This document shows, piece after piece, positions 54,979-56,091 of a DNA stretch of 64,000 bases. The notes under the pieces are model-generated. The model was not told the origin of the DNA and ran no database searches. It saw only the letters and a program-made list of their open reading frames with translations. The position numbers and the translations under genes were made by a program. Origin of the DNA: Thermus neutrinimicus (GTDB lineage Bacteria > Deinococcota > Deinococci > Deinococcales > Thermaceae); the NCBI RefSeq assembly GCF_022760955.1, contig NZ_JAKTNU010000003.1, positions 62,001 through 126,000 of the forward strand. The letters are read 5' to 3'. The first letter of the stretch is position 1, and every line of letters begins with the position of its first letter.

Positions 54979-55007
54979 TTGCGAGAAGGGGCTGGGTCTG
55001 GTATAAA
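54979..55007 (+). promoter_or_regulatory. Promoter of the riboswitch-peptidase operon
   Basis: TTGCGA (54979-54984), 17 bases and TATAAA (55002-55007) place the transcript start near 55014, just before the aptamer. Confidence 0.7.
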
Positions 55008-55013
55008 GGAAAC

Positions 55014-55161
55014 CGCGGGGAGTAGCCGCCCCCCATGGGGCCAGCCGGTCGTCAGTACGGGAGCCATCCCCGGTCGGCTGGGGCGCCAAAGGGCGCATGG
55101 CGAGACCACCTACCTAGGTGGCCTCGGTTTTTTGCTACTCTCCGTAAGGAGGTGGACGGGA
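55014..55161 (+). promoter_or_regulatory. yybP-ykoY-type (manganese) riboswitch with terminator
   Basis: GGGGAGTAGC (55017-55026) pairs with GCTACTCTCC (55134-55143) as the closing stem. Inside are GTCGTCAGTACGG (55048-55060), a CCAGCCG/CGGCTGG helix (55041-55047 with 55075-55081), GCGCC-AAAG-GGCGC (55083-55096) and ATGGCGAGACC (55097-55107), the conserved blocks of this Mn2+-sensing family. CGAG-A-CCACCT pairs with AGGTGG-C-CTCG (55101-55126) and is followed by GTTTTTT: an intrinsic terminator that uses the conserved GAGACC. CTCC (55140-55143) can also pair with GGAG of the ribosome-binding site. Ligand binding would be expected to favour expression. Confidence 0.85.
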
Positions 55162-55842
55162 ATGGACATGTTGGCGCTTTTGCTCATGGGGCTGGTTTTC
55201 TTGGCCAGCTTGGCGATTCAAGGGGGTTTGCAGGCTACCTTTGCCCGTTTCAGCCGGGTGGCCAATAGCCGTGGCCTTACGGGAGCCCAGGTGGCCCGGG
55301 CCATTTTAGATGCCCATGGCCTCACCCATGTCCGGGTGGAACCGGTGCCCGGGGCGCTCACCGACCACTACGATCCCCATGCCAAGGCGGTGCGGCTTTC
55401 CGAGCCCAACTACGCCTCGTCCAGCCTGGCGGCCTTGGCGGTGGCGGCCCACGAGGTGGGGCATGCGGTGCAGGATGCCCACGGCTACACCTGGCTTCGG
55501 GTGCGGGCTAGCCTCTGGCCAGCGGCTAGCCTGGGCACCAACCTGGGCCCGATCCTGGTGGTGGGAGGCTTGATGCTGGGGGCCATCGGTCTGGCCAAGC
55601 TCGGGCTTTACCTCTACCTGGCGGTGGCCCTATTCCAGCTGGTGACCCTGCCCGTGGAGTTTGACGCCTCGAGGCGGGCCCTGGAGTTCCTACGGCGCAT
55701 GGGCTTCCTCTCCCAGCAGGAGATGGTCCCTGCCCGGCAGGTGCTCACCTGGGCGGCCCTTACCTATGTGGCCGCCTTGGCCAGCTCCTTGGCCACCATC
55801 CTCTACTACGCCAGCCTCCTCATGGGTCGGAGGGAAGAGTAA
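55162..55842 (+). CDS. YugP-family membrane zinc metallopeptidase
   Basis: 226 residues. An N-terminal membrane helix (MLALLLMGLVFLASLAIQGGL) is followed by LTGAQVARAILDAHGLTHVRVEPVPG and the HExxH site in LAALAVAAHEVGHAVQDAHGY. Further hydrophobic helices (ILVVGGLMLGAIGLAKLGLYLYLAVALFQLVTLPVE) and EFDASRRALEFL, with the third metal ligand Glu, follow. It belongs to Zn_peptidase_2 (PF04298); substrates are not known. AAGGAGGTGG lies 9 bases upstream. It is preceded by the Mn-type riboswitch and followed without a gap by a zinc-ribbon gene. Confidence 0.9.
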   Translation: MDMLALLLMGLVFLASLAIQGGLQATFARFSRVANSRGLTGAQVARAILDAHGLTHVRVEPVPGALTDHYDPHAKAVRLSEPNYASSSLAALAVAAHEVGHAVQDAHGYTWLRVRASLWPAASLGTNLGPILVVGGLMLGAIGLAKLGLYLYLAVALFQLVTLPVEFDASRRALEFLRRMGFLSQQEMVPARQVLTWAALTYVAALASSLATILYYASLLMGRREE

Positions 55843-56091
55843 ATGCCCCTTCTCCTTTGCCCAAACTGCCAGGTGGGCATGAAGGAGGTGGAGAGGCGGG
55901 GGGTCCTATTGGACGTTTGCCCCCAGTGCGGGGGGGTGTGGCTGGATCGGGGGGAGTTGGAAAAGCTCCTGGCGGAGGCCAAGGAGGTGGAGCGGGCTTA
56001 CGAGGAGGAGCGGGAGGCGTACCACCGCAAGGAGGGCAAGCCCTACAAGAAGAAAAGGGGCTTCCTGGAGGTGCTGGACCTCTTTGACTAG
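55843..56091 (+). CDS. TFIIB-type zinc-ribbon protein
   Basis: 82 residues. CPNCQVGMKEVERRGVLLDVCPQCGGVWLDRGELEKLL is the zf-TFIIB/YlxR-like single zinc ribbon with two CxxC pairs. A charged helical tail (KEVERAYEEEREAYHRKEG) follows. The function of these small proteins is unknown. Its ATG immediately follows the peptidase TAA, so it shares the riboswitch-controlled mRNA. Confidence 0.88.
   Translation: MPLLLCPNCQVGMKEVERRGVLLDVCPQCGGVWLDRGELEKLLAEAKEVERAYEEEREAYHRKEGKPYKKKRGFLEVLDLFD

Follow-up and report, generated by a model that had tools for sequence, protein, structure and literature searches.

The window, that is, the whole 64-kb stretch of DNA analysed from Thermus, a genus of hot-spring bacteria, contains a two-gene operon preceded by a leader of about 145 nt. 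The first gene, yugP, codes for a putative membrane zincin, and the second, which begins directly after the yugP stop codon, codes for a small zinc-ribbon protein. The rhodanese gene located upstream points away from the operon and the peroxiredoxin gene located downstream faces it. The features of leader and operon are:

54979..55007 (+), promoter with -35 TTGCGA, a 17-nt spacer and -10 TATAAA (sequence)
55011..55110 (+), yybP-ykoY (Mn2+-type) aptamer, a four-way junction of P1-P4 that includes GGGGAGUAGC, CGUCAGUACG and GAGACC (RF00080, model R2, covariation)
55017..55026 (+), core strand a, GGGGAGUAGC, the 5′ side of loop L1 (invariant in the 24 aptamers of alignment A3)
55052..55059 (+), loop L3, UCAGUACG, which holds A55054 (UCA invariant in 24/24)
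55102..55107 (+), core strand b, GAGACC, the 3′ side of L1; its CC pairs with GG at 55017-55018, and it is also part of the terminator (conservation)
55101..55133 (+), intrinsic terminator CGAG-A-CCACCU/AGGUGG-C-CUCG followed by GUUUUUU (sequence, folding)
55134..55143 (+), anti-core linker a′, GCUACUCUCC, 10 bp with 55017-55026 (duplex energy against shuffles)
55146..55152 (+), Shine-Dalgarno sequence AAGGAGG (sequence)
55162..55842 (+), yugP, 226 aa, putative membrane zincin (peptidase family M65) with HEVGH (PF04298, E 1.2e-81)
55843..56091 (+), gene for a small zinc-ribbon protein, 82 aa (PF13453, E 1.8e-20)

The -10 box of the promoter and the CTTG of its -35 box are conserved among the aligned Thermus leaders; the promoter was absent from the list given by a generic promoter scan. 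In 27/27 leaders, 6, 7 or 9 nt separate the end of the -10 box from the GGGG, a spacing so short that the transcript would begin almost at the aptamer and helix P1.1 would be short. A sequence-only reading of this DNA had described an operon for a membrane HExxH peptidase (YugP) and a small zinc ribbon, preceded by aptamer blocks, a terminator that uses GAGACC and a promoter. All of these leader elements are present in the sequence, and the matches to PF04298 (273.9 bits against a cut-off of 27 for YugP) and PF13453 confirmed both gene assignments.

Identity of the aptamer

The top-ranked Rfam family at the yugP leader is RF00080 (yybP-ykoY), which matched positions 55005-55179(+). The covariance-model match expected by the sequence-only reading was thus found, with an E value of 8.7e-6 across the whole genome, yet its 27.6 bits lie below the gathering score of 45 bits, which is a library cut-off and not a structural feature. 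A default Rfam scan misses the aptamer because its score is under this value; at the gathering threshold, the scan of the 64-kb window returned tRNAs alone (two). The RF00080 gathering score is passed by 0/111 Deinococcota genomes, clear terC leaders among them.

Two covariance models were used in addition. R1, derived from 24 aptamers of the phylum Deinococcota, recovers the experimentally known E. coli mntP riboswitch with 43.0 bits (E 7.5e-11 in 5 kb), the sole test case of its reach in far phyla. R2, derived from 29 aptamers located before genes other than yugP (E. coli mntP included) in an alignment made with R1, a model whose own training included yugP leaders, assigned the yugP aptamer 70.9 bits (E 2.9e-15), while the runner-up match in the 64 kb reached 15.1 bits. 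Across the yugP leaders, R2 scores were 66-82 bits in 25 and dropped to 29.2 and 25.9 bits in two Thermus genomes (G040 and G047).

The leader folds better than 200/200 shuffles (z -3.84). In alignment A3 (24 aptamers), 90.2% of the cells pair and 17/27 pairs change on both sides; the covariation scores were matched by 0/500 shuffles, sliding the partners abolished the signal, and a further alignment, A5, gave the same outcome. The sequences GGGGAGUAGC, CGUCA and AGACC are unchanged in 24/24 aptamers of A3. So is the conserved L1 sequence GGGGAGUAG at 55017-55025 with its 3′ partner RAGACC at 55102-55107, and the UCA of L3, found at 55052-55054 in the window, is kept in all 24. The R2 structure match and the covariation support a four-way junction of P1-P4, in which P4, with 70-75% of cells paired, is the weakest of the helices and P1 consists of GG/CC plus GCC/GGC. 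We use P1.1 and P1.2 as strand names according to what we take to be the published fold, fitted to R1. The L3 sequence of the window, GUCAGUAC, is identical in several Meiothermus terC aptamers. An invariable L3 adenosine contacts Mn2+ through its N7 in the crystal structures described in PMC6754395, and A55054, which follows UC in L3, corresponds to it.

The leader shares with RF00080 members such as E. coli mntP and L. lactis yoaB the four-way junction, the L1 sequence, the UCA of L3 and the 3′ GAGACC, as well as a terminator that competes for the 3′ strand. It differs from them in its score below the gathering value, in a target that is a peptidase instead of a transporter, and in having a very short P1.1 together with a dedicated linker that competes for the 5′ core strand. 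Because of its structural features and its R2 score, we file the aptamer under RF00080. The leader upstream of yugP is an ordinary member of this known class, as the sequence-only reading had proposed, and is predicted to bind Mn2+. Rather than defining a new riboswitch class, it adds a member to the regulon, and its expression platform is a variant one. What appears to be new is the target, its fixation in the genus Thermus beside terC, and an exchange of two strands.

Distribution and a second aptamer before terC

The recurrence check suggested in the sequence-only reading was clearly positive: the association is present in 26/26 yugP-holding Thermus genomes, in a sister genus and in two other Deinococcota. 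The Thermaceae set comprised 50 genomes, with yugP in 47 and R1 matches in 42. It included 27 Thermus genomes, of which the only one lacking yugP is 65% complete; in the other 26 an R1 match lies 44-57 nt upstream of the yugP match. In the sister genus (G049) the R1 aptamer is located 91 nt before yugP. This leader (L061:2179-2368(-)) lacks a U-tract and contains a long nested hairpin, but has retained both the anti-core linker and the core hairpin (CCGC/GCGG). No such leader was found at yugP in three other Thermaceae genera (22 genomes, 20 with yugP), which indicates that YugP needs no manganese control in general. Deinococcota-wide, PF04298 was present in 103/111 genomes and R1 in 60/111, and a comparison of coordinates added two yugP-linked aptamers from another family (G100 and G109), for a total of 29/103. 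In these two genomes, frames of 40 and 39 codons, one of them cysteine-rich, lie between riboswitch and yugP (L070:1620-1742; L213, minus strand).

In addition, 80 named yugP loci from many phyla were searched with R1, a Deinococcota-trained model, and matches before yugP were found in the five Thermus loci only; the 72 loci of other phyla showed no manganese leader by R1. A scan of 76 yugP loci (72 from other phyla, three from other Thermaceae and Thermus L135) at the Rfam gathering threshold detected no RF00080, a negative that carries no weight because the real L135 aptamer was missed too; the R1 search of the full set of 80 is more informative.

A second R1 match was located 63-71 nt before a TerC profile match in 27/27 Thermus genomes. 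In the genome of the window (G000), this aptamer lies at C8:63919-64008(-) (L003:1582-1672(-)) and scores 64.7 bits with R1 and 10.3 with Rfam; two further TerC genes of the same genome had no R1 match. In the three other Thermaceae genera, six of the inspected aptamers precede a TerC-like gene. The sequence-only reading had stressed that neither gene of the operon is a known Mn transporter, unlike the usual targets. This is correct for the peptidase and the zinc ribbon, but Thermus also has the usual partner, with its own aptamer before terC. The sequences thus suggest a manganese riboswitch regulon of two genes, terC and yugP, in Thermus.

Other aptamer targets were also seen. In some Meiothermus, a further aptamer precedes the gene of a small basic protein (~61-71 aa) whose N terminus is hydrophobic and whose tail is rich in Tyr and Gly (L030, about 1497-1620; L217:313-417(-)); the version from G020 had no Pfam match, and this is possibly a new Mn-controlled small protein. 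Genome G097 has two aptamers (L069:1571-1672(-) and L071:1548-1651(-)) before genes that, on reading their sequence, resemble sodium/calcium exchangers.

Expression platform and direction of control

The terminator stem with its U6 tract takes in core strand b (GAGACC), and the linker GCUACUCUCC, located 3′ of the U-tract, is complementary to core strand a. The sequence-only reading had considered the resulting 10-bp stem to close the aptamer; instead, it pairs core strand a with the linker and takes the aptamer apart. In the window this duplex has -18.0 kcal/mol against a shuffle mean of -7.3. It was measured in 26/27 leaders (L051 was left out as identical to L050) and was better than with shuffled linkers at p <= 0.022 in 25/26, the exception being L053 (p 0.17). 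Counted by eye, the linker forms 10 pairs with the core in sixteen leaders, 9 in eight and 8 in two. Pairing between the linker and the Shine-Dalgarno sequence was no better than with shuffled linkers (median p 0.47 at 37 °C and 0.35 at 65 °C). The Thermus and Meiothermus terC leaders have the same aptamer core and a terminator starting at GACC, but the anti-core linker is lacking in 27/27 Thermus terC leaders (duplex median -4.0 kcal/mol, median p 0.68). Each core strand of the yugP leader would then have its own competitor, and the aptamer and the combination of terminator and closing stem appear to be mutually exclusive. The GCUA that follows the T-run is also found before yugP in two aptamer-less relatives (L062 and L064). 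Part of the linker could therefore be inherited for another reason, which would not account for all of the 8-10 bp formed with the core.

Computed energies, which represent secondary structure alone without a tertiary or Mn2+ term, were -43.8 (aptamer), -53.7 (terminator) and -71.6 kcal/mol (terminator and closing stem) at 37 °C, and -16.8, -20.7 and -30.9 kcal/mol, respectively, at 70 °C. Since the off fold is predicted to be much more stable than the aptamer, switching would have to be kinetic, and the fact that the aptamer is made first in transcription fits such control. Kinetic control has been described for the L. lactis Mn riboswitch (PMC11087558). P1.1 serves as the switch helix in this class, and the median number of its contiguous pairs is 2 in the 27 yugP leaders and 3 in the terC leaders; with a difference of just one pair, the idea that a missing P1.1 is special to yugP was toned down.

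The U-tract has 6 T in the 8 positions after the hairpin in 15/26 leaders, including that of the window. G049 and a few Thermus genomes have a weak U-tract although their aptamers are intact, which suggests that termination may not be the switch everywhere. Two Thermus genomes, G040 and G047 (leaders L052 and L059), have aptamers without L3 or P3, the two low R2 scores cited above, and also lack the U-tract (3 T in 8) and the zinc-ribbon gene; both retain the two core strands, the hairpin and the linker. The YugP tree places them apart, at weakly supported forks. The joint loss of zinc ribbon and aptamer in the same 2/26 Thermus has a chance of 1 in 325 if independent, a figure that comes from two events only. 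Loss of the U-tract along with decay of the aptamer fits activation by Mn2+ because an unrelieved terminator would silence yugP, although G049, with an intact aptamer and no U-tract, is a counter-case to such disarming.

Taken with a probability of about 0.68, our main reading is that the operon of yugP and the zinc ribbon is controlled by transcription attenuation through a Mn2+-responsive yybP-ykoY riboswitch, a second unit beside the terC riboswitch. The direction of control would most likely be activation, with Mn2+ stabilising the aptamer, keeping the terminator from forming and switching yugP on. Transcription would start a few bases upstream of the aptamer. At low Mn2+ levels, the GGCCUC of the terminator hairpin would capture strand b and most transcripts would stop. 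At high levels, Mn2+ would be bound by A55054 and the L1/L3 phosphates with strands a and b held in the aptamer; the lower terminator stem could then not form and RNA polymerase would read through. In the full-length transcript, linker a′ could pull strand a from an empty aptamer, and the off fold would be locked from both sides.

Control might instead operate mainly at the level of translation or mRNA stability, the closing stem tying up and protecting the 5′ end and the hairpin not being a working terminator. The persistence of hairpin and linker despite poor U-tracts (G049, G036 and G041), and even with a decayed aptamer, would agree with this, but the T-rich tract that follows the hairpin in 15/26 leaders, the window among them, makes it unlikely. 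The direction could also be the opposite, with Mn2+ repressing yugP: the aptamer would keep strand a and the freed linker would cover the Shine-Dalgarno sequence through its CUCUCC, while without Mn2+ the linker would sit on strand a, leaving that sequence open. The linker CUCC is complementary to the GGAGG in most leaders, and the closing stem does leave the Shine-Dalgarno sequence unpaired. However, linker pairing exceeds shuffles with the core and stays at shuffle level with the ribosome site, and an anti-Shine-Dalgarno role of the linker was put second on these grounds; furthermore, the overlap of the terminator with GAGACC favours activation, and the characterised members considered here, E. 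coli mntP, E. coli alx and L. lactis yoaB, have been described as ON switches. We consider repression quite unlikely.

We give a similarly low likelihood to the aptamer sensing a different divalent metal. Such a ligand would explain the zinc peptidase and the zinc ribbon, which are unusual downstream genes, and some yybP variants are suspected of a changed ligand in the account given in PMC7266159. On the other hand, the leader retains the Mn2+-contacting adenosine and all invariant core bases, and its L3 is that of several Meiothermus terC aptamers. Chance adjacency or a functionless relic, for which nothing but the sub-threshold Rfam score could be adduced, is hardly credible: the aptamer is at yugP in every yugP-holding Thermus genome, sequence and promoter are conserved, and no other R2 match in the window exceeds 15.1 bits.

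YugP and manganese in Thermus

H97, E98, G100 and H101 of YugP are invariant across the 29 sequences of alignment A6. The AlphaFold model (pLDDT 94.5) is largely helical and includes the HEVGH. A comparison of the sequence with solved structures gave no relative, and Foldseek gave no match at E<=0.001; by VIA, the model reached Z values of 5.0-6.5 with the zincins ArdC, IrrE/PprI, BlaR1 and ZMPSTE24, which are weak and stand amid unrelated helical rows. The zinc-ribbon gene follows yugP in 24/26 Thermus loci, and a rough pattern search did not find it beside yugP in 75 other named loci. The B. subtilis YugP, of the same peptidase family (M65), is described as a membrane protease; germination is slightly delayed in cells that lack both it and HtrC (PMC13393411).

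Work on B. subtilis offers precedents for a connection between manganese and membrane proteolysis. According to PMC10550928, the Mn that its TerC proteins export serves to metalate exported enzymes; these TerC proteins co-purify with FtsH and HtpX, both membrane proteases, and cells that lack them cannot do without FtsH. One of the TerC proteins, MeeY (YkoY), is under a Mn riboswitch, so that a riboswitch-controlled TerC is linked to membrane proteases, as may be the case in Thermus; unlike Thermus yugP, the protease genes are not reported to be under a riboswitch in the portions of that paper considered here. B. subtilis also has the rhomboid YqgP, which Mn activates; it cleaves MgtE and helps the cell to withstand Mn stress (PMC7231995). 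With FtsH acting along with YqgP on MgtE, the Mn level is likewise tied to membrane proteolysis, but there Mn acts on the protease protein, a serine protease, and no RNA takes part. Based on the TerC-FtsH/HtpX and YqgP precedents, we prefer to see YugP, by analogy, as a protease partner of TerC. In manganese excess YugP would be made together with TerC, and its likeliest role would be the clearing of wrongly metalated membrane proteins or of proteins stuck in the translocon. Manganese level and membrane protein clean-up are probably linked in Thermus, in line with the link that the sequence-only reading had suggested. A bolder version, which we consider less likely than not, is that Thermus has its two-gene regulon because YugP performs quality control as a protease in the TerC/translocon pathway, and that the switch has a new kind of platform in which the two core strands change partners simultaneously, b moving to the terminator and a to a linker by the ribosome site, so that the off state is zipper-closed at 70 °C.

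Our literature search, within the papers it covered, retrieved none joining a yybP-ykoY riboswitch with YugP or a metallopeptidase; the supplements of PMC3766115 (five Deinococcus-Thermus genomes) may list the operon. The case raises the concrete questions of whether YugP is a Mn-stress protease and which membrane protein it cuts. The two-strand exchange, if true, would let a metal switch operate at 70 °C by simple means. Mn riboswitches serve to find Mn transporters, and in Thermus one marks a predicted membrane protease, fixed through the genus and paired with TerC, elsewhere a partner of membrane proteases.
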